Positions 1,534 through 22,458 of a DNA stretch of 25,947 bases are shown here, piece after piece (the stretch's first letter is position 1; each line of letters starts with the position of its first letter). The notes under the pieces were generated by a model that saw nothing but the letters and a program-made list of their open reading frames with translations, did no database searches and had not been told where the DNA came from. The DNA comes from a virus, in the IMG/VR virus record IMGVR_UViG_3300043409_001840, positions 1 through 25,947 of that record. One strand, 5' to 3'. Both the position numbers and the translations under genes were made by a program.

Positions 1534-3063
1534 GTGTCAAGTATTACGCCTAATCTAAGACTCAGGCTGTCCGAGAATTTGACTGCCGACGCTCGCTATA
1601 ACCTAGAGAGGATTGACCTTGTCGGGTCCATCGTCCAACTAGATGATAGTCAGAGCGCGGCAGTCGCCTCTCTTTCCTCTATTAATCTACTTCCCAACGC
1701 CCCCAGTAAGGGTGGCAGTGGTAGCGGTGGTACCGTCTATGTCGGTTCCGCCTCTCAATTATCTAATCTTCTAGTATACGGAACTATTACAGGGGATTTG
1801 TCTGGCAGTGCCACAAGTTTCACCGGTCCTCTTTTAGGGGATATTATTGGAACCCAAGGGGCCACCGCCATAGCTCCGGGCGTTATTGTAAATGGAGATA
1901 TAAATGCCGCAGCGGCTATTGCAGGAAGCAAAATATCGCCTGTATTCACTGGCCTGGTGGAGTCTGGACCACAAGGATTCCTTATCCGTAATGGTTCGTA
2001 CTCTACGAGCCTTCTCCCAGGTAATTCGCAACTTGCTGATGTAAGCCTGAAGCTGCCCATCACAGACGGCCTCCCTAACCAGGTACTCACCACTGACGGC
2101 AGCGGTAATCTATCCTTCTCCAGTCCAGGCGCGGGGACAGTAACCAGTGTGGGCCTAGTCCTACCTGCCATGTTCACCGTAAGCAACTCTCCTGTAACCC
2201 TATCCGGCGACCTAACCGCCGTCCTGGCTACCCAGAGCGCCAAGGCTGTACTAGCAGGGCCTGTTTCAGGTGCCGCAGCGGTCCCTACCTTCCGTCAACT
2301 ATCAGCTGATGACCTGACAGACGGCAGTACCAACAGGTTCTACTCTGACAGCCTCTTTGCTATCAGCCTCAGTACCCGTACAACCACCAATCTGGCTGAG
2401 GGTACCAATGAGTACCACACCACTGCCAGGGCCAGGACAGCTGCGGTAGTTAATAGCACAGCAGGCACAGAGACTGACCAGGCCCCCAGCGTCTCCTCAA
2501 TTAAAAGCTATATCGCTGGCCTGACCACCTCTGATATAGCCGAGGGTACTAATCTCTACCATACTGACCTCAGGGCTCAGGACGCAGCCGGTGCCTTGGT
2601 AGCCGATACCGCCACCGCCCAGCTGGATTATATCTCTGGCACATCCTTCTCTGTCACCGTCCTGCCGCAGGGCCTTATTAATAGCGTCTCAGGCATAGCG
2701 GAATCGGGCGGCATACTTAGCGTATCCCCCGTTGACGCCACCGCCAAGACTACCCCAATCGCCACTGATATCCTGCTGATTGCTGACAGTGCATCCAGTA
2801 ACGCCTTGAAAAAAATTACGCTGGCTGATATTGTTACCCTGGCCGGAAACGGATTCTCTGATACATGGGTCTCAGGAACAACCAAGGCAGTGGCTCACGG
2901 CCTAGGAACCAGAAATGTAATGGTTGAGGTATTCGATAATGTTACCTATGAGACCGTATACCTGGATAGCGTAGTGAGAACAGACACTAACACAGTAACA
3001 CTTACGGCCAGTGTGGCCCCATCAGGAAGCGGCCTCACCGTGCTCGTTAAAAGGATAGCCTAG
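1534..3063 (+). CDS. Tail fibre protein (509 aa)
   Basis: Receptor-binding or stem fibre built of modules common in phage fibres. The GTG start at 1534 is preceded by AGGA (1523-1526) at seven bases. Residues 1-60 are polar and may be the virion-attachment part. Residues 60-66 are a Gly/Ser linker. Residues 118-135 (IVNGDINAAAAIAGSKI) are a fibre-stem motif also seen as IVDADIKAAAGIVYSKL in the next gene. Residues 200-262 (GTVTSVGLVLP to RQLSADDL) match a very common tail-fibre module. Residues 258-350 hold three imperfect repeats (DLTDGSTNRFYSD, NLAEGTNEYHTT, DIAEGTNLYHTD). Residues 447-509 form a C-terminal beta domain (VAHGLGTRNVMVEVFD to VLVKRIA) widespread at fibre ends. The function is secure at the level of fibre; the receptor is unknown. 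Confidence 0.85.
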   Translation: MSSITPNLRLRLSENLTADARYNLERIDLVGSIVQLDDSQSAAVASLSSINLLPNAPSKGGSGSGGTVYVGSASQLSNLLVYGTITGDLSGSATSFTGPLLGDIIGTQGATAIAPGVIVNGDINAAAAIAGSKISPVFTGLVESGPQGFLIRNGSYSTSLLPGNSQLADVSLKLPITDGLPNQVLTTDGSGNLSFSSPGAGTVTSVGLVLPAMFTVSNSPVTLSGDLTAVLATQSAKAVLAGPVSGAAAVPTFRQLSADDLTDGSTNRFYSDSLFAISLSTRTTTNLAEGTNEYHTTARARTAAVVNSTAGTETDQAPSVSSIKSYIAGLTTSDIAEGTNLYHTDLRAQDAAGALVADTATAQLDYISGTSFSVTVLPQGLINSVSGIAESGGILSVSPVDATAKTTPIATDILLIADSASSNALKKITLADIVTLAGNGFSDTWVSGTTKAVAHGLGTRNVMVEVFDNVTYETVYLDSVVRTDTNTVTLTASVAPSGSGLTVLVKRIA

Positions 3064-3065
3064 TA

Positions 3066-5045
3066 ATGAAAATTCTTGGTACTATATCAGAACTTGTAAA
3101 GGTAATCCTTCGCAAGTCTACCTATGAGGTCACAGTACAGCCTAGTACAGTTACCGCAGATACAACATTCGAGCTGCCAGCAGCAGGCGGTGGCACAAAG
3201 GCTATTGTAACAGCCGATAGTTCAGCTACCCTCACTAACAAGACAATTGACAGCGATAGTAATACTATAACTAATATAGTGGATGCCGACATCAAGGCAG
3301 CCGCCGGTATTGTATATTCCAAATTAAGTATTGCCGACGGCGACCTTACTATAGCTAAGACCTCTGGACTACAGACGGCCCTGGATAGCAAGGTAGACGA
3401 AAATCTCCCCATCACTGGTGCCACGAAAACAAAGATTACCTACGACGCCAAGGGTCTAGTAACAGCCGGTGCCGACATCGCTAATACAGACATGCCAGAA
3501 GACATCGCCAGAAGCAAGCTGGCCCCGGGAACGGCTAATCATGTCCTCATTAATGATGGCACGGGTGAGATTACTAGCGAGGCGCAGCTGGCTACTAGCC
3601 GGGGCGGAACCGGGGTAAACTCCACGGCCACCTTTCCCTCCACCGGCACGGTAGTTACTAGGGATGCCACAGAGACACTTCTCAATAAGACAACCGTATC
3701 CTCTACCGGAGCGGCAACGGGTGCCCTGACCCTTCCTACAGGTAATACGAGCGACAGGACCGGCCTTACCACAACGGGCATGGTTCGCTTTAATACTAGC
3801 CTAACATCCTTTGAGGGCTATGATGGCACTACATGGTCAGGTATTGGTGGAGGAGGAACCACTGACCGCGTTACCCAGGCCTCCCACGCCTTTGTGGTTG
3901 GCAATGTTCTGTACCTGAATGGCGCAACCTATGCCAAGGCTAGGTCTGACGTAGCCAATACCGCCGAGGTAGTCGGTATGGTCAGTCGCGTTATTGATGC
4001 CAATACCTTTGAGATTACCCTGAGTGGGGAGGTATCAGGACTTACTGGCCTCACGGCTGGTGAGGTCTATTTCCTTTCTCCCATTACAGCTGGTGATGTC
4101 ACGGCCACTGAGCCTAGTGTCGTGGGACAGGTATCGCTGCCGGTAGGTATCGCCAGCAGTACCACCACCATGTATGTCCAGCCTAAAAGGGGCGTATTAG
4201 TTGGCGCTACTAACGTCAGGACACAGATTGCCCTGGCGGCATCGGCTACTACTACGGTGCAGAATGTATCGGCGTACGACGCCGGGGAACTCTCTGGCTA
4301 TGTAATAATTAATGCCACGGCATCACTTCGTTTCTTTGTGAATGCACAGTTCTCCAGGAATGGCGCAGGAACTAACTACAATGTTAGCTATCAGGCCAGC
4401 GGTGATATGCCGCCAGCTGGCTTTCAGATTACGATTACAGCCGCCGGACTACTTCAGGTAGTAATGCCCAGTGTTGCAGGATTCACCAGCGCCGCTATCA
4501 CATACGGCCTGGACGTGGCCGCCGTAGGCGCGACACTCCCACTGAGTATCTCGGCCAGAGCTGTTCTTGGTGATGTATCAGGGACGGCGGTACCGGCGGG
4601 GTATATTGGGGAAGTTATAACTTCCAGCGTGACTACTGCCACAAATGTTGGCACTACAGGACAATATTTTAATTTAACTTCAATCACGTTAACGCCCGGA
4701 ACTTATCTGATTAATGCTTCAGCAAAATACAATAGAAATTCTGCAACATTTAGTTCAGTAGATTTAGAAATTGGTTTCAGCGCAACTACCGGAAATTCAT
4801 CTACTGGGCTTGTTACTGGTGTGAGTTTGATTGAAAAAGTACAAGATGTTGGCCTTACGTTTACACAAACACCAATTTCTATGCCTACGGTTTACCTTAG
4901 ATATGACGGAACAACTGCAACAATACAAAACGGCGGAACATTAACGCCAACCGGCGGTGTTTTTTATCTAAAAGGATATTGCGGTGTATATTCTGCCGCT
5001 ACTCCGCAATATTATTGCACTGTAACAGCAGTCCGTATCGCATAA
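3066..5045 (+). CDS. Tail fibre protein with exchangeable tip (659 aa)
   Basis: Long fibre whose start ATG (3066) lies two bases after the stop of the previous fibre gene; AAGGA at 3051-3055 inside that gene can serve as ribosome binding site. Stem region: TLTNKTIDSDSNTITNIV (56-72), AAAGIVYSKL (78-87), LTIAKTSGLQTALDSKV (94-110), ITYDAKGLVTAGADI (124-138). A TTTGMVRFNTSLTSFEGYDG module (236-254) is typical of tail fibres ahead of a head domain. Residues 260-500 are beta-rich. Residues 503-659 form a tip domain opening GDVSGTAVPAGYIGE and ending AVRIA. That opening and end recur in the small gene at 5870, while the centres differ. The DNA of the tip centre is visibly richer in A/T than the rest of the gene, suggesting recent exchange. 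Probable receptor-binding fibre. Confidence 0.85.
   Translation: MKILGTISELVKVILRKSTYEVTVQPSTVTADTTFELPAAGGGTKAIVTADSSATLTNKTIDSDSNTITNIVDADIKAAAGIVYSKLSIADGDLTIAKTSGLQTALDSKVDENLPITGATKTKITYDAKGLVTAGADIANTDMPEDIARSKLAPGTANHVLINDGTGEITSEAQLATSRGGTGVNSTATFPSTGTVVTRDATETLLNKTTVSSTGAATGALTLPTGNTSDRTGLTTTGMVRFNTSLTSFEGYDGTTWSGIGGGGTTDRVTQASHAFVVGNVLYLNGATYAKARSDVANTAEVVGMVSRVIDANTFEITLSGEVSGLTGLTAGEVYFLSPITAGDVTATEPSVVGQVSLPVGIASSTTTMYVQPKRGVLVGATNVRTQIALAASATTTVQNVSAYDAGELSGYVIINATASLRFFVNAQFSRNGAGTNYNVSYQASGDMPPAGFQITITAAGLLQVVMPSVAGFTSAAITYGLDVAAVGATLPLSISARAVLGDVSGTAVPAGYIGEVITSSVTTATNVGTTGQYFNLTSITLTPGTYLINASAKYNRNSATFSSVDLEIGFSATTGNSSTGLVTGVSLIEKVQDVGLTFTQTPISMPTVYLRYDGTTATIQNGGTLTPTGGVFYLKGYCGVYSAATPQYYCTVTAVRIA
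4581..4612 (+). repeat. Tip-cassette left flank, copy 1
   Basis: 32 bases encoding GTAVPAGYIGE at the start of the fibre tip. They match copy 2 (5906-5937) at 30 of 32 positions, same orientation and same reading frame. Copy 2 is 1325 bases downstream. Confidence 0.95.
5028..5041 (+). repeat. Tip-cassette right flank, copy 1
   Basis: GCAGTCCGTATCGC at the 3' end of the fibre gene, encoding the terminal AVRIA. It matches copy 2 (6299-6312) at 13 of 14 positions. With the left flank it brackets a 415-base divergent centre. Confidence 0.9.
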
Positions 5046-5055
5046 GGAACTATAT

Positions 5056-5292
5056 ATGTTAATTAAAATACTTCCAGGCGAATACCTCTGGTCAGAGAGT
5101 GGACTCCACGTCATTGATAGTAGCGGATTTGCAACTATTGCGACTGAGGAGTCTGAGGTTGAGGTAGCTGATGAGGCACAGGTTGCTATCATTCAGGCAT
5201 ACCAAGAAGAGAGAAGGCGGGCAGTCGAAGAGCCCGCGGTCCAATTGGAAGAAGAACCAGCCCCCGAACAGCAGGAGAATACAAATGTCTAA
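5056..5292 (+). CDS. Small acidic hypothetical protein (78 aa)
   Basis: I do not recognise a family. The ATG at 5056 has an AAGGA site (5044-5048) that overlaps the TAA of the fibre gene. Residues 1-30 look like a short beta segment (MLIKILPGEYLWSESGLHVI), and residues 32-78 are a charged helical tail rich in Glu ending in EEEPAPEQQENTNV, probably disordered. Its last eight bases overlap the start of the collar-domain gene, and the AGGAG that serves that gene lies within it. Position between two fibre-type genes suggests a role in fibre assembly or a small fibre component, but this is inference from context only. Confidence 0.65.
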   Translation: MLIKILPGEYLWSESGLHVIDSSGFATIATEESEVEVADEAQVAIIQAYQEERRRAVEEPAVQLEEEPAPEQQENTNV

Positions 5293-5860
5293 CAGCGCAA
5301 TTGGAGCCACGGGAGCCATTGCGGCCCTGCCCGCTGGCGTTATGATTGATTACGCGGCAACGGTAGCCCCAGCAGGCTGGCTGATGTGCGATGGCAGCGC
5401 GGTCAGTAGGACCACCTTCGCTAGTCTATTCGCCACCATCGGTACTCTTTATGGGACAGGAGACGGCAGTACAACATTCAACCTGCCCGACTTCAGGGGG
5501 CGTTTTGCCCGGTACATGGATAACATGGGCACTCCGGCAGGGGCGGCTGGTAGAGATACCGGCAGGGTGCTGGGGGCAACCGCACAGGCAGATTCTACTA
5601 AACGTCCGACAACGTCACTGACTACGGGAAACGAATCTGTGGGTCATACTCACGGAATCGGCGGCAGCGTGCCTATCAATGGTGGGTCAACGGCATTTGG
5701 TGCTGTGGCCTGGTTAACCGGCAACGCTGTTAACACCACTACTACCATGCCGGGGACCACCACTGGTGTGAGCGCAAGCCACACACATACGGTCACGGGC
5801 GGTGGTGACGCAGAGACCCGCCCAATCAACCTCGCCTGCAATAGAATCATAAAGGTATAA
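5285..5860 (+). CDS. Phage tail collar domain protein (191 aa)
   Basis: Short-fibre type protein with a Phage Tail Collar domain (Pfam PF07484 family). Residues 16-74 carry the family pattern: PAGVMIDY, then APAGWLMCDGSAVSR, FATIGTLYGTGDGSTTFNLP and DFRGRF. The C-terminal region has two HxH motifs, GHTHGI (120-125) and SHTHTV (165-170), and ends with ETRPINLACNRIIKV, a typical ending of these proteins. HxH pairs bind metal in the T4 gp37 tip, so a metal-stabilised trimeric tip is possible. I chose the ATG at 5285 because AGGAG (5273-5277) lies seven bases ahead; the in-frame upstream extension to 5171 only overlaps the 78-residue gene and has a sequence unlike the family. Confidence 0.88.
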   Translation: MSNSAIGATGAIAALPAGVMIDYAATVAPAGWLMCDGSAVSRTTFASLFATIGTLYGTGDGSTTFNLPDFRGRFARYMDNMGTPAGAAGRDTGRVLGATAQADSTKRPTTSLTTGNESVGHTHGIGGSVPINGGSTAFGAVAWLTGNAVNTTTTMPGTTTGVSASHTHTVTGGGDAETRPINLACNRIIKV

Positions 5861-5869
5861 GGAAATAAT

Positions 5870-6316
5870 ATGACACAGAAACAATTGCTACAGGGTGCGG
5901 GGGATGGGACGGCGGTTCCGGCGGGATATATTGGGGAGAAAATTTCATCTGTTGTTACAAATGCAACGGCACCTGCTACCGGAACTGGCTTTGTTGAAAT
6001 AGTTGCTAGAACCATTACTTTAAGTAGAGGTAGTTATATTGCTTTAGCCTATGTTGCGCCAAGTGGCTTTACTGGAAATGTAGGATTACTTGATGTATTT
6101 ATAAATTCCGGCACAAATTCTCCATCTGTTTCTGGCGGCGTAAGAGGCTCATCATACTCACCGGCAAATGTTATTCTGGCCGCAAACTGCACTGCTTTTA
6201 TCCTAGTAACTGCGGATAGTTCAACTATAACCCTAAGCTGTCGTGCAACGTCAAGTAGTACAATGAGCGGTACGGTAAGTTTAGGCTCAGACTTTCAAGC
6301 AGTTCGTATCGCCTAG
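5870..6316 (+). CDS. Stand-alone fibre-tip protein (148 aa)
   Basis: A free-standing copy of the tip module found at the end of the 659-residue fibre. The ATG at 5870 has AAGGA (5859-5863) at six bases. After about 12 leader residues (MTQKQLLQGAGD) comes GTAVPAGYIGE, then a beta-rich domain (about 22-143), then the terminal AVRIA. The flanks are shared with the big fibre at DNA level, while the centre (5938-6298) has no evident close similarity to the fibre's centre beyond the general fold pattern. It has no stem, so it must either trimerise on another fibre, act as an accessory adhesin, or be a reserve cassette. The centre is A/T-rich relative to neighbouring genes. Confidence 0.75.
   Translation: MTQKQLLQGAGDGTAVPAGYIGEKISSVVTNATAPATGTGFVEIVARTITLSRGSYIALAYVAPSGFTGNVGLLDVFINSGTNSPSVSGGVRGSSYSPANVILAANCTAFILVTADSSTITLSCRATSSSTMSGTVSLGSDFQAVRIA
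5906..5937 (+). repeat. Tip-cassette left flank, copy 2
   Basis: Direct repeat of 4581-4612, differing at two bases (T for A at 5917, A for G at 5926); both changes keep the encoded residues. Confidence 0.95.
6299..6312 (+). repeat. Tip-cassette right flank, copy 2
   Basis: GCAGTTCGTATCGC at the end of the stand-alone tip gene, a direct repeat of 5028-5041 with one silent change. With the left flank it brackets a 361-base centre. Confidence 0.9.
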
Positions 6317-6333: not shown

Positions 6334-7215
6334 GTGCTATCCACTATCAGATACATTCTTACCGGGGGCGGCCTTACCAGTAGGCCAAATCGCCCCGACT
6401 ATCTGGACTCCCATCAGGTAGTAGACAAGTACCTCCTGTATAGGGCGCATTGTACCGGTGTGATGCCCGGCTGCGATGGTCTCTTATTCACCGCTATCGG
6501 CCAATCCTCCGGTGCCTGTGGCGATGCCCAGCTGTCCTCCTTCGAGGGTGAGCCAGGGCAATGGTTCCGTTCTCCTGACCACGACTGCCACCCCCTACAC
6601 TCGGCCTCAGATATCAGCAAAGATATGATGATGGGCCTCGCTCTCTGGTGCTCCGTATTCAGGGCGGAGAAGGTGGCGGCCAGAACACTGCGCAGAGCCC
6701 TGCTCCGGGCAGGCAACATGGGCCGCCCCTGGTACCTAATCTCCAGGACCCTGATGTCTCCTAATCTCATGTACTACTTCTTTTTATGTAGCAAAAAGTC
6801 ACGCAAACCAGGACTTTTCGGCAGACTGCTCCTAGCCACCAGCCATCTGACTCCACTTTCTGGTTTCCAGGCCCACCTACAGGCCCTGTCAATCCTTCTA
6901 CTTATGAGAATAGAGGGTGGTATCAATCCCATCTCTATGAAAACACTGAAGAAATTGACAGCCGCTAGTCCCAGGAATGCTATGTTCTTGGCTATGCTGG
7001 GCATAAATAATGAGTGTGTTTCAATGCTTATGGACATCTCTATGTTCCCCGAGAACGGCCCTCCTAGCACTAGGAACTACTCTACAGATTATCTGTGGCA
7101 GCGGACCCCCTCAGAAAACCCTAAAGACTGGTTGCCTAGCGATGAGGAACCTGCTAAAATCCATAGTGGTATTGACTTCCTGGTAGCCGCGGCTATCTAC
7201 CTCAGAATGGTCTGA
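6334..7215 (+). CDS. Conserved phage protein of unknown function (293 aa)
   Basis: No domain with known function recognised. The GTG start at 6334 follows GGGAG (6323-6327). The sequence is Cys- and His-containing near the N terminus (C40, C47, C62, C85, with DGLLF at 48-52 and SPDHDCHPLHS at 80-90), followed by SASDISKDMMMGLALWC (90-106). This layout, DGLLF then a Cys/His segment then S-x-ISKDM-like and a Trp, reminds me of uncharacterised proteins near tail-fibre genes in other podophages; that is from memory and unverified. The rest is helical and basic, with an acidic stretch near 265-280. There is no signal peptide. It sits between the fibre-tip gene and an XhlA-like membrane protein, so either a virion-associated or a lysis-cassette role is conceivable. 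Confidence 0.7.
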   Translation: MLSTIRYILTGGGLTSRPNRPDYLDSHQVVDKYLLYRAHCTGVMPGCDGLLFTAIGQSSGACGDAQLSSFEGEPGQWFRSPDHDCHPLHSASDISKDMMMGLALWCSVFRAEKVAARTLRRALLRAGNMGRPWYLISRTLMSPNLMYYFFLCSKKSRKPGLFGRLLLATSHLTPLSGFQAHLQALSILLLMRIEGGINPISMKTLKKLTAASPRNAMFLAMLGINNECVSMLMDISMFPENGPPSTRNYSTDYLWQRTPSENPKDWLPSDEEPAKIHSGIDFLVAAAIYLRMV

Positions 7216-7787: not shown

Positions 7788-8762
7788 GTGGCCAGACGAC
7801 TTACCACCGAGGACCTCGTAGCAGAGGTTCGCTCGATGATAGACGAATCTAATATTACGTCCGTTCGCGATGAGGAGGATATTATTCCTGCCCTTAATCG
7901 TGGACAGGACATGGCGGCTAATATTCTAGCACGCCATTATGAGGCCCCATTACTAGTACACCAAGATGTAGCCCTCACGGCGGGACAGTCTGAGTATCCC
8001 ATACCAGAGGATGCCTTCGAGCAGCGCCTGGAGAAGATAGAGGTAAGGGTTAATAACCTGTTCTATCCCGTAAAAAGAATTGATTATCGGGACTCCAGCG
8101 CCTACGAGAGCCTGAACCTAAAGACCAATGTACCCTACTACTACACCGTAGTCGGTAATAAGTACCGCCTACTCCCGTCACCTACCGCCACATACCCACT
8201 TCGTATCTGGTTCCTAAAGGACCCTGAGCCGCTCGTAAAGAGTCAGGGCCGCATCACCTTTATCAAGGCCGACCAGAATTATATTATCCTGGACGCGGTA
8301 GGCTCATCTCTCACCGTATCAAATGCGGAGTTGAACTGTTACGCCAATCTAATTGATGGTCAGACAGGAGAGGTAAAGGCAACAATGCAGATTTCTAATA
8401 TCCAGGGCAATAAGATTACCTTTAAGAGTGTCTTTGGCCCTAATGACCGCACCACCGTTCTCAATAAAACAATCAGCAGTGACCTCTCCACCGTCTCCGT
8501 ACAGCCAGACGATTTCATTTGTACGATTCACGGCAGCTGTATCCCTATCATGAAGAAGCCCTTCAGTAACTATATCATTCAGTATGCCGTGGCAGAGATG
8601 CAGCGCAAATTGGGCGGCCCGGCTGATATGGAACTTAAGGTAAAGCAGGACCTAGAGGTTGTCGTGGAGAGAAGCTGGGTCGGAAGAGAGACCTCCCTTC
8701 GCGTATCTCGGGCCAATAGGAATTGGGAAGTACCACCAAGAAGATACTACGATGGCCGATAG
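7788..8762 (+). CDS. Head-tail adaptor protein (324 aa)
   Basis: Probable connector/adaptor that bridges portal and tail, comparable in role to T7 gp11 or P22 gp4. The GTG at 7788 has AAGGA (7777-7781) at six bases. The N-terminal helices (TTEDLVAEVRSMIDESNI, 6-23; DIIPALNRGQDMAANILARH, 31-50) are the pattern seen in adaptor proteins, followed by a beta section (SEYPIPEDAFE and RLEKIEVRVN) and a strand-loop part with YYYTVVGNKYRLLPSP. The C-terminal half is longer than in gp11-like proteins and ends in a basic helix and tail (RANRNWEVPPRRYYDGR). It lies two small genes upstream of the nozzle protein, as expected from T7-like order (adaptor then nozzle). Its 3' end overlaps the next gene by 11 bases. 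Confidence 0.65.
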   Translation: MARRLTTEDLVAEVRSMIDESNITSVRDEEDIIPALNRGQDMAANILARHYEAPLLVHQDVALTAGQSEYPIPEDAFEQRLEKIEVRVNNLFYPVKRIDYRDSSAYESLNLKTNVPYYYTVVGNKYRLLPSPTATYPLRIWFLKDPEPLVKSQGRITFIKADQNYIILDAVGSSLTVSNAELNCYANLIDGQTGEVKATMQISNIQGNKITFKSVFGPNDRTTVLNKTISSDLSTVSVQPDDFICTIHGSCIPIMKKPFSNYIIQYAVAEMQRKLGGPADMELKVKQDLEVVVERSWVGRETSLRVSRANRNWEVPPRRYYDGR

Positions 8763-9030
8763 AAAAGAAAAACTTAAGAAACTCCGTAAGAAGGGATTCC
8801 AGTTCCGTAAGGAGCACAAAAATCCTGAGGGTGGCCTGTCAGAGAAGGGCCGAAGTGCCTACAACAAGGCTACTGGCAGTAACCTGAAGAGGCCCCAGCC
8901 CGAGGGCGGCTCCCGTAGGGATAGCTTCTGCGCCAGGATGAGGGGCATGAAGAAGAAATTGACCAGCGAGAAGACGGCCAAGGACCCTGATAGTCGAATC
9001 AATAAATCACTCCGAAAATGGAATTGTTAA
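8752..9030 (+). CDS. DUF6321-like small basic protein (92 aa)
   Basis: Small, strongly basic protein matching the pattern of a phage family that I recall as DUF6321: a KEKLKKLRKKGFQFRKEH start, GGLSEKGRSAYNKATGSNLK (30-49), then GGSRRDSFCARMRGMKKKL and a DPDSRINKSLRKWNC end. No function is established for the family to my knowledge; the charge suggests nucleic-acid or acidic-protein contact inside the virion. I chose the ATG at 8752, overlapping the adaptor gene's stop by 11 bases; the in-frame extension upstream to 8659 lies wholly in the adaptor gene and does not fit the family start. Confidence 0.8.
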   Translation: MADRKEKLKKLRKKGFQFRKEHKNPEGGLSEKGRSAYNKATGSNLKRPQPEGGSRRDSFCARMRGMKKKLTSEKTAKDPDSRINKSLRKWNC

Positions 9031-19536: not shown

Positions 19537-21765
19537 ATGGCTACTGAATTTCAAAAGGCAAGCAGGGGAAAGATAGTATCAGATACTCCCGCAATACAAG
19601 AATTTGAGCGGATTAAGGAGGAGGCCTCAATCGAGGCAGCCGCCGCACGCGCCGGGAAATCACCCGAAGAGATTAAGGCTGAGGCCAAGGCTGCCGGTAC
19701 GGACCCTATCAGCTGGATTAAGGATAAGTATCCGCCACCGGGGATGCCTAAAAAGCCAGCCGAGAGAGCGCCCGCCGAGCCCGTGGCTGACCAGATAGAG
19801 ACACCAGAAGAGAAGGCCACAAGGCTACAGAAAATTCAGAGACAGATAAAAGCAGGCACCTATAATCCGGTTGAGGGAATTGCCGCAAGCCTTGGTGTAC
19901 CTGAAGAGGCCGCCCCAAAAACCGTTGCCGAGACAGTAAAAAAGGCAGCTAAAGAAAAGAAAAAGGCAGAGGCCGCTCCACTTGTACAGGAGGCTCCGAC
20001 GGTAGCCGAGCAGGTCAAGAGTGGCGCAGCCCTTAAAAAAGAGCAGGCGGCCATTCGTAGTGCCATTACCTCAGCCCCACAGTTCGCTATTATTACCGCT
20101 GAAAGTCCAAGGGGGGAGACCGTCCCAGGCGGTAATGAGGCCCTTAGGAAAGAGCTTGAGGCCAGGGGGTATAAGTTTGAGCAGATGGAAGGAATGTATG
20201 GTGGTAAAGAAAATCCATTCCTAGTACAGACAGATAAACTCTCAGACATTCAGAGTCTCGGTAAGAAGTATGGCCAGGAATCTGTTATCCTTGCAGATAA
20301 TAATAAGTACAAGATGCAGTTCACCAGCGGGCCGCAAGAGGGTCAGTTTTACACAGCCAACACTATTACTCAACACGCCACCCCGCCCAAGGATTATTAC
20401 TCAACCGTGGTTAGGGATGGCAAGCCGGTTCATTTTACCATAGACTTTGATATGGAAAAATTAAAAGGGAAACCTGTGGCGCAGGCTAAGGCTCCGGCGC
20501 AGGCTTTGGCTAAGGTAGTTGGACCAGAGGCACCACCACCGGCTACGGGTGTCGAGCAGGTAGCCAACGCGGAACGTCGCACACAGGCCGAGGGAGTCAA
20601 AAAGTTACTTATTGAGCAGGGAGTACCTCCACAGGAAGCCCTTGCGCAGGCAGAGACCGTGGTGACCGGTGCGGAGAAGGCTGCCTCAAAGACCGGCAGT
20701 AGTCTAAAAGATATCATACAAAATAATGTCAAGACAGCATTCAGGGTTGCCTCAGAGAATCCTAAGACATCACTTGCCGCCGCCCTGGTAGGCCTTGCCT
20801 CTGCTGGTTTAATGGCAACCGGAGAAAAGGATAAGACTCCTCCACCAGTATCTCCGCCAACGCCACCAGCTGAAAAGAAAAAAGAATCGGTAGAGCCCCC
20901 ACCGGCTGTAGTAAAGACAGTTAAAGAGGGAGATGACACACTGACCGAGTTTGAGGCATATAAGAAGAAGATGTCACTCACCGATACCGAAAAAGAGAAA
21001 TTTGCAGGGATTGAGGAACGCCTGAAAGATTCTTTGGATTCCGCCAAGGATGCCTACTCCAAGGGAATGAGAAGCACTGAGCTATACAAGGCCTTTGAAA
21101 AAATAGCCGAGGGTCTGGCCCTATACGGCGCAGGACTGTATGGCAAGAAGAGTGGAATTGATGCCGTTAGCGGACTGAAGTTTAGTCCCATTGATTGGTC
21201 TACTCGAACGGATAGACTGACCAAGGAGTTGGATATGGCTGACAGGTCCTATACCAAGGGTATGGAGACGGTTAAGGAAGAGAAGCGCGGTATTGAGAAA
21301 TTGCGGGAAGAGGCCGTTAAGTTCGAGGAGGGCCGCAAGGAGCGCGAGGAGAAGCGGGCGGAAAGACTTGGAACCAAGCAGACCGCGGCGGAGGAAAAGG
21401 TTGCAAAGGGCCAGAAAGAGATTCTGATGGGAAGGATTAAGGACCTAGATAGGCAGATTAATGATATTGAAAAGGTTAGGACCTCAACGCCCAAGTCTGG
21501 TGATGCCATGGAAAGGCAGTACAAGGCCCTGGCCACTACCCTAAAAATCCCTGAGACTGAGTTCATGACCGGAATGCTTGGTGGATTTAGGGAGGGAGCG
21601 GCTGATGCGGCATTCCTAAAGAAGCAGCAAGAACTTACAGCAACACGGGACCGGCTTGAGAAAGAGTTGCGGGGAGAACCCGGTCAGGCGCAGCCAGTCT
21701 CAGGACTTACACCAACACAAGAAGCTAGAAGACAAGAACTACTACGCAAGCAAGCTGGTAAATAA
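19537..21765 (+). CDS. Internal virion protein with DUF3293-like domain (742 aa)
   Basis: The ATG at 19537 follows AGGA (19526-19529). Residues 1-180 are Lys/Glu/Ala/Pro-rich and low complexity. Residues 182-305 form a globular domain resembling DUF3293 proteins: FAIITAESPRGE, NEALRKELEARGYKF, EGMYGGKENPFLV, LGKKYGQESVILAD, then YYSTVVRDGKPVHFTI. DUF3293 has no established function to my knowledge. A hydrophobic segment (411-428, TSLAAALVGLASAGLMAT) is followed by a Pro-rich stretch (434-456) and helical parts (NDIEKVR and similar, about 556-645). The C terminus (VSGLTPTQEARRQELLRKQ, 721-739) resembles the motif at the start of the next two proteins. It is probably a core or ejection protein; the domain's job there is unknown. 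Confidence 0.65.
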   Translation: MATEFQKASRGKIVSDTPAIQEFERIKEEASIEAAAARAGKSPEEIKAEAKAAGTDPISWIKDKYPPPGMPKKPAERAPAEPVADQIETPEEKATRLQKIQRQIKAGTYNPVEGIAASLGVPEEAAPKTVAETVKKAAKEKKKAEAAPLVQEAPTVAEQVKSGAALKKEQAAIRSAITSAPQFAIITAESPRGETVPGGNEALRKELEARGYKFEQMEGMYGGKENPFLVQTDKLSDIQSLGKKYGQESVILADNNKYKMQFTSGPQEGQFYTANTITQHATPPKDYYSTVVRDGKPVHFTIDFDMEKLKGKPVAQAKAPAQALAKVVGPEAPPPATGVEQVANAERRTQAEGVKKLLIEQGVPPQEALAQAETVVTGAEKAASKTGSSLKDIIQNNVKTAFRVASENPKTSLAAALVGLASAGLMATGEKDKTPPPVSPPTPPAEKKKESVEPPPAVVKTVKEGDDTLTEFEAYKKKMSLTDTEKEKFAGIEERLKDSLDSAKDAYSKGMRSTELYKAFEKIAEGLALYGAGLYGKKSGIDAVSGLKFSPIDWSTRTDRLTKELDMADRSYTKGMETVKEEKRGIEKLREEAVKFEEGRKEREEKRAERLGTKQTAAEEKVAKGQKEILMGRIKDLDRQINDIEKVRTSTPKSGDAMERQYKALATTLKIPETEFMTGMLGGFREGAADAAFLKKQQELTATRDRLEKELRGEPGQAQPVSGLTPTQEARRQELLRKQAGK

Positions 21766-21768
21766 CTA

Positions 21769-22458
21769 ATGGCCCTTACCCCAGAAGAACAACAAGAATT
21801 AAACCAGCTAAATAAAATGGCATCATATCCTGGGCCAATCTCGGCCTCTACGATAAAGTACGCGCCACAAAATCAAGAAACCTCCCTACTCAAATATGCC
21901 CAGGGAGAGGGCCTGAACAAGAATGAGCTTACGGCCTTTATGGCGCAGGTATCCCACGAGTCAAATGGATTTAGAAACCTGGAAGAAATCGGTGGTGGGA
22001 AAGATACTTACAGTGGTGGCAAGGATTATAAGGGTCGCGGCTATATTCAACTAACCCATGATTATAACTATAAGGCCATGGGCGATAAGCTGGGAATTGA
22101 CTTACTTAATAATCCTGACCTGGCTGCTGACCCAGAGATTGCCAAAAGAATTGCGGTTCAGTGGTGGAAGGATAATGTTAGGCCGGGCGTAAAAGACTGG
22201 AATGATGTATACTCTCATAGCAGACTTGTTAATTATCCAAACGCAACCGGTCCGGAGCAAGTCAAGGGATATGATGAGAGGGTGGCTGAGTTTCAAAAAT
22301 ACCAGAAACAACTCAGGCCGGTTATTGTTGAGGTAAAGGGCGGCCTTTTTAAGATTCCAGCGATTCAGGTACCAGAAGTACTTAACGATTGGCCCGAGGC
22401 ACGTGTGGTACCCAGTTCAACTAGCATAGCATCTGAACGGAAAAGTCAAAGACCATGA
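21769..22458 (+). CDS. GH19-type lysozyme, virion-associated or endolysin (229 aa)
   Basis: Peptidoglycan hydrolase of the glycoside hydrolase family 19 / phage lysozyme type, cleaving glycan strands. Key pattern: FMAQVSHESNGFRNLEEI (57-74), with the putative catalytic acid at Glu64 in HES and Glu72/Glu73 as nearby acidic candidates for the second residue. It continues with YKGRGYIQLTHDYNY (87-101), the family's GRG-x-IQ(L/I)T signature, and IAKRIAVQWWKDNV (124-137). The segment between HES and GRG is only about 22 residues, shorter than in classical GH19 chitinases. Residues 2-17 (ALTPEEQQELNQLNKM) are a motif seen again in the next protein; residues 185-229 are a polar tail. There is no signal peptide. 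The gene lies inside the internal-virion block, separate from the XhlA-like gene, and overlaps the next gene by ATGA, so a virion-borne role during entry seems likelier than classical endolysis. Confidence 0.8.
   Translation: MALTPEEQQELNQLNKMASYPGPISASTIKYAPQNQETSLLKYAQGEGLNKNELTAFMAQVSHESNGFRNLEEIGGGKDTYSGGKDYKGRGYIQLTHDYNYKAMGDKLGIDLLNNPDLAADPEIAKRIAVQWWKDNVRPGVKDWNDVYSHSRLVNYPNATGPEQVKGYDERVAEFQKYQKQLRPVIVEVKGGLFKIPAIQVPEVLNDWPEARVVPSSTSIASERKSQRP

Follow-up and report, generated by a model that had tools for sequence, protein, structure and literature searches.

The window analysed here, a 26-kb record of an uncultivated virus taken at its full length (IMG/VR IMGVR_UViG_3300043409_001840, positions 1 to 25,947), contains a long tail-fibre gene and a small stand-alone gene whose 3′ parts appear to be exchangeable receptor-binding tips bounded by the same short repeats. 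Both lie in a run of structural genes comprising a podovirus-type capsid protein (matching NF033394 with a score below the family cut-off), fibre genes, a collar, an SU10-type adaptor, large tail proteins and an endolysin. The local order is fibre (659 amino acids, aa), a 78-aa gene, the collar, the stand-alone 148-aa gene and a 293-aa gene. The two tip-bearing genes are made up as follows; confidence of the AlphaFold (AF2) models is given as mean predicted local distance difference test (pLDDT).

3066..5045, + strand: long tail-fibre gene, 659 aa; body at residues 1-505, tip domain at residues 506-659
4581..4612, + strand: 5′ border, copy 1, GTAVPAGYIGE at the fibre-tip junction; the fully degenerate pattern recurs in 12 IMG/VR records
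4613..5027, + strand: variable centre 1, predicted TNF/C1q-like beta-sandwich tip of the fibre; AF2 mean pLDDT 80, profile match to the PhiM1 gp47 tip
5028..5041, + strand: 3′ border, copy 1, AVRI, then A and stop, with the same end in relatives
5859..5863, + strand: Shine-Dalgarno AAGGA for the stand-alone gene, in its upstream sequence; the form in many relatives is AAGGAGCAAAC-ATG
5870..6316, + strand: stand-alone tip gene, 148 aa, putative second adhesin; at the same operon position in about 20 relatives
5870..5905, + strand: constant N-terminal peptide MTQKQLLQGAGD, candidate docking peptide
5906..5937, + strand: 5′ border, copy 2, GTAVPAGYIGE in the stand-alone gene
5938..6298, + strand: variable centre 2, predicted TNF/C1q-like beta-sandwich tip of the stand-alone protein; AF2 mean pLDDT 78
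6299..6312, + strand: 3′ border, copy 2, AVRI in the stand-alone gene

A previous, sequence-only reading of this DNA had described two cassettes with shared flanks and unlike, A/T-rich centres, and most of that description is confirmed. The 5′ flanks agree at 30 of 32 positions and the 3′ flanks at 13 of 14, essentially none of which is expected in shuffled sequence: the window holds only two copies of the 5′ flank with up to 3 mismatches allowed (0 in 100 dinucleotide shuffles) and only two of the 3′ flank (shuffle mean 0.14 at up to 2 mismatches). Both pairs are direct repeats in one frame, reading GTAVPAGYIGE at the start and AVRIA at the end. The centres measure 415 and 361 nt, and their guanine-cytosine (GC) fractions are 0.39 and 0.42 vs 0.54 in the fibre body and 0.55-0.56 downstream; across the group of related phages, tip GC lies below fibre-body GC in 18 of 22 genes (mean difference 4.5 points, P = 0.0004). 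The claim that the centres are unlike each other stands for sequence, as no significant match was found between them once the border was removed, but not for fold, since both are predicted beta-sandwich tip domains and align at about 28% with the border included. The most fitting view is that the two tips belong to one domain family and have diverged far.

Predicted fold of the two tips

Structure prediction of both tips, which had been proposed as a check on the sequence-only reading, gave two beta-sandwiches whose fold begins right at the border. AlphaFold, given an alignment of 41 tips, produced monomer models with moderate confidence (pLDDT 78-80). Both models are all-beta; the first strand begins at residue 24 of the submitted stretch, immediately past the border, and the last extends to the RIA end. 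Foldseek matches of these moderate-confidence models were to BC2L-C, TNF, C1q-like viral proteins and cyanophage fibres, at template modelling (TM) scores of about 0.4-0.66, with the stand-alone model matching the BC2L-C N-terminal lectin (2wq4) at 0.55-0.64. Because model confidence is moderate, assignment of the tip family rests mainly on the sequence-profile match. The only solved protein matched by the 41-tip profile was the tail fibre gp47 of Pectobacterium phage PhiM1 (8vbx_R, residues 401-533), with an E-value of 6.3e-12 and coverage of profile positions 8-147 of 148. The best family match of the tip set was PHROG 11393 (tail fiber protein), found by 13 of the 41 tips with E-values down to 1.2e-8; the match of the window's stand-alone protein to this family was below threshold. 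Both centres are predicted to be complete C-terminal tip domains of the TNF/C1q-like type, and the tips would act as trimeric adhesins.

Tip exchange among related phages

Relatives were sought with degenerate pattern scans for the border, the stand-alone N-terminus and the fibre context, which returned about 30 records (referred to below by L numbers); a stand-alone tip gene is present in roughly 20. This gene usually sits after the collar gene or after a second fibre gene (MSSSAF...), in L027 directly after the fibre, and is usually followed by a member of the 293-aa gene family. The 659-aa fibre has homologues along its full length in L009 and L027 (46-55% identity) and over most of its length in L025 (50%). 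Gene order and borders in L009 and L010 (about 70-76% DNA identity) are as in the window, and the centres differ. A search of named phages gave no match for the tips, the fibre body or the capsid, while the collar did match and served as a working control; a scan of GTDB genomes for the stand-alone N-terminus gave 0 matches.

In several pairs of relatives the stand-alone gene has unrelated centres between near-identical neighbours, with identities of 99% upstream and 87% downstream in L031/L036, 100% and 91% in L040/L042, and 100% and 87% in L034/L035. Tips are also shared between different genes. L032 carries on its second fibre the tip that L034 has in its stand-alone gene: the two are 89% identical in DNA along 417 nt, from TGTTGGGGGAG to AGAATCGCCTAA, and beyond these limits the sequences are unrelated. 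L024 likewise has as its fibre tip the stand-alone tip of L045 (78% DNA, 81% aa). More distantly related pairs are the L031/L036 second-fibre tip with the stand-alone tip of L042 (72%), and the fibre tip of L033 with the stand-alone tip of L037 (64% DNA, 52% aa). The reassortment at these exact borders that the sequence-only reading had proposed to look for in related phages is thus found both in L032/L034 and L024/L045 and in the swapped stand-alone centres.

Other relatives carry rearranged genes. The fibre of L031 has no tip, and its old 3′ border TAAGAATCGCCTAACAAGGAGCGCATATG is left as a footprint behind the new stop. The stand-alone gene of L041 contains second-fibre body sequence and fibre-type context. 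In the L024 fibre, an N-terminus of fibre type is followed by second-fibre body sequence, then by the border and finally by a tip abutting TAATGCTAAAACTACTC, the junction of the stand-alone and 293-aa genes; the collar and stand-alone genes are missing, and the layout looks like the product that crossing-over between borders would leave. Of the earlier proposal that recombination could swap or fuse tips and delete the genes in between, swaps in relatives and the predicted deletion arrangement in L024 were therefore recovered, while recombination within one genome was not. These comparisons with about 20 relatives show, at the level of sequence, that tips are interchangeable cassettes moving between genes and phages at the borders described. 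A separate observation concerns L010:3-950, where the fibre gene is frame-shifted inside a tip that is intact in L038, possibly through an assembly error.

The explanation that we favour, with a probability of roughly 0.7 as a whole, is a shared pool of cassettes together with a role for the stand-alone product as a separate small adhesin. Both genes, fibre and stand-alone, would close with a single receptor-binding tip belonging to one TNF/C1q-like family; the stand-alone product would consist of a short constant N-terminal peptide and then the tip. Tips would be drawn from a pool common to a group of uncultivated phages, with cassette limits running from GTAVPAGY[IV]GE to RIA-stop. Recombination would replace the cassette within one gene or shift it to another (fibre, second fibre or stand-alone), with genes sometimes collapsing into one, and would leave phages of the group with one to three heads that change independently. 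Because the borders sit at domain edges, a swap would preserve both frame and fold. The stand-alone protein would be incorporated into the virion, a recombination enzyme would carry out the exchange, and host range may change as a result.

The stand-alone gene and the border DNA

The sequence-only reading had taken the stand-alone gene for a spare head kept beside the active one, a proposal that fits poorly with the constraint on this gene. The ratio of nonsynonymous to synonymous substitution rates (dN/dS) is 0.09 (L009/L010) and 0.17 (L025/L039) for orthologous stand-alone centres, and 0.10 to 0.57 for cross-gene tip pairs. The N-terminal peptide MTQKxLLQSAGD is constrained as well, with nonsynonymous and synonymous differences (pN and pS) of 0.19 and 0.52 among stand-alone genes across relatives. 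With a Shine-Dalgarno sequence and a start codon of its own, a conserved peptide at the N-terminus and signs of purifying selection, the gene is read as coding for an expressed protein, and it looks like a second adhesin rather than a silent store. A silent head, exchanged for the active one by direct-repeat recombination within one genome so that host range is switched, would account for repeats that are direct and in frame, and the L024 layout is as expected after border recombination of the fibre or second fibre with the stand-alone gene. We nevertheless judge it very improbable: translation signals, peptide and dN/dS values speak against it, the longest exact run between the window's own borders (11 nt) is shorter than the minimal pairing lengths quoted for Red-beta (23-27 nt) and RecA (31-34 nt; PMC3945230), and a simple crossover would remove the collar. 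The same tip occurs twice in 0 phages of the set, exact 5′ border runs within one genome span 5-17 nt, and a single phage present as identical copies in three metagenome records keeps its tip pair unchanged. With the collar gene in between, a frameshift fusing the fibre to the stand-alone protein was rejected.

Fibre chaperones are usually encoded by a small gene that lies downstream of the fibre gene (PMC10579305, PMC9608196), and on this ground the stand-alone protein might assist the fibre as a chaperone or cap it transiently, in the manner of Tfa or of the chaperones of Alteromonas phages. We find this slightly harder still to credit than a spare head, as the protein belongs to the fibre-tip domain family, whose centres form covalent fibre tips in other phages, and its centre varies independently of the fibre that it would fold. 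The scans gave no match to a chaperone family, Tfa-type included, the protein being homologous to fibre tips instead.

Whether border DNA does more than mark the edge of a domain is a separate question. Part of the identity between borders is protein conservation. However, the window's two 5′ borders share 8 of 11 codons vs 3.7 expected from codon usage (P = 0.008), and the shared codons are mostly rare in this phage (GGG 11%, ACG 14%, GCG 13%, CCG 18%). When fibre and stand-alone borders are compared within one genome, 31 of 54 codons are shared vs 19.4 expected (P = 0.0009), and codon agreement among fibre borders is 61% vs 40% just upstream. Exact border runs of 24-35 nt, of the order given for Red-beta (23-27 nt; PMC3945230), connect different genes of different phages; the fibre of L009 and the stand-alone gene of L010 have a 35-nt exact tract in common. 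The idea that phages avoid long border identity inside one genome was dropped, as run lengths within and between genomes do not differ.

It is quite possible, at somewhat less than even odds, that borders are conserved only as structural domain edges, with cassettes carried either by flanking-gene homology or by illegitimate recombination, after which selection keeps only the in-frame domain swaps. This alternative overlaps with a shared cassette pool and differs from it only in what the border DNA does. The flanks of the stand-alone gene, which offer hundreds of nt at 87-100% identity, are in keeping with it, as are the L032/L034 exchange, in which only about 10 nt are shared at the 5′ border, and within-genome runs that on average do not differ from between-genome runs. 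The excess codon identity of fibre/stand-alone borders, the 24-35-nt exact runs between genes of different phages and the 3′ border footprint in L031 argue the other way. Border identity probably helps some exchanges, and others do not require it. A stronger version, which we regard as doubtful, holds that the 32-nt border is kept as a DNA homology tract that lets incoming tips splice into fibre, second-fibre and stand-alone positions, the stand-alone gene serving as a landing or donor site besides encoding a working second adhesin. If so, the phages would possess a combinatorial multi-head host-range system that needs no invertase or reverse transcriptase.

Several points weigh against the favoured explanation. 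No close relative with either of the window's own tips was found: none for the stand-alone tip, and for the fibre tip only partial matches at 40-50%. The exchange therefore concerns relatives and not these two cassettes. L024 could be an ancestral single-fibre form and not a deletion. Codon sharing between second-fibre and stand-alone borders does not exceed expectation, so that long border identity is unnecessary for exchange. Finally, the tip models are monomeric and of moderate confidence, with modest Foldseek scores.

Neighbouring genes and known systems

The remaining features of the block and its surroundings are:

5056..5292, + strand: small conserved gene, 78 aa, no function assigned; also in L009 and L010
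5285..5860, + strand: phage tail collar protein, 191 aa from the ATG at 5285; PF07484, E-value 4.6e-23
6334..7215, + strand: conserved 293-aa gene, right-hand anchor of the exchangeable block; 94% identity to L008, 70-72% to L009 and L010
3467..6334, no strand: whole block of fibre body, tip, collar and stand-alone gene, replaced in the siblings L008/L011 by the C-terminal part of an unrelated fibre (blastn of the window vs L008, and open reading frames (ORFs))

The 293-aa gene is common to four further IMG/VR records (L008, L009, L010 and L011). L008 and L011, mutually identical over the stretch compared, are about 90-96% identical to the window over conserved genes and carry an unrelated 924-aa fibre in place of the block. 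That fibre ends in ELESKPTWAY, and the fibre of L044 has a similar terminal domain (IELASKPTWAY), which by its sequence is a second, unrelated class of exchangeable tip. The upstream fibre-like gene (1534-3063, 509 aa) corresponds in L008/L011 to a longer homologue of 759 aa, in which about 300 residues mid-protein are unrelated, and a second site of modular exchange may therefore lie near 1534-3063. The 293-aa family (6334-7215) has no family match and is kept even in otherwise distant phages; its homologues in L024, L025 and L031 start with a lipoprotein-like signal (LLFIILAxxSC). Elsewhere in the window, the small protein at 8686-9030, which adjoins the adaptor gene, clearly matches DUF6321 (E-value 1.8e-21), and a 742-aa protein amid structural genes (19537-21765) has a sub-threshold match over residues 200-280 to S-adenosylmethionine lyase and DUF3293 families.

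T-even phages encode gp38, a hypervariable adhesin, separately in the fibre operon. The stand-alone gene would likewise provide a separately encoded hypervariable adhesin, with the difference that it shares its head family with the fibre; no tip matched a gp38 family in Pfam or PHROG, and the tip alignment contains no glycine-rich segments. Phages Mu and P1 keep alternative fibre C-termini side by side in invertible form, under Gin or Cin. In the window, unlike these, the repeats are direct rather than inverted and both tip versions appear to be translated. Inversion of the Gin/Cin type was rejected on the direct repeats and the lack of a recombinase, and Pfam and NCBIfam searches detected no reverse transcriptase, invertase or transposase, in both cases within the scanned set of window proteins, which excludes the large 3′ terminal ORF at 22455. 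A diversity-generating retroelement was also rejected: whole domains differ, with insertions and deletions, the variation is not point-like (adenine), and the scanned set gave no reverse transcriptase.

Further parallels are found in the mosaic tail-fibre C-termini of P2, Mu and lambda (PMC10684548), where a conserved N-terminal part is likewise combined with an exchanged receptor-binding domain; here, unlike there, one tip pool serves three operon genes, one gene is a bare tip, and borders are shared. The C-terminal domain of PhiM1 gp47 (PDB 8VBX), treated as part of a T7-like fibre (PMC11440229), belongs to the same family by profile and has a related start (GTAAASGIVGEV) and the end ARRV; neither a stand-alone copy nor an exchange of cassettes was found described for PhiM1. 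TNF-like heads also occur at the fibre ends of cyanophage Pam3 (PMC9608196) and of Bdellovibrio (PMC10769870), tips of the latter having been swapped in evolution on a conserved fibre. The available parts of these two accounts describe no stand-alone tip gene beside the fibre, and according to the first, which also discusses S16 gp38, Pam3 differs in having an added glycine-rich domain and a separate chaperone (PMC9608196).

The arrangement is a variant of known fibre-tip mosaicism, and its new part is that several genes, a bare tip gene among them, draw on one tip pool. That phages exchange fibre tips is well established; the remarkable point here is a single pool for two or three genes of one operon, with borders sharp enough for the cassette to be read straight from the sequence. 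The group would offer a naturally occurring collection of exchangeable phage heads to work with, and it suggests how separately encoded adhesins and tips fused to a fibre may interconvert.

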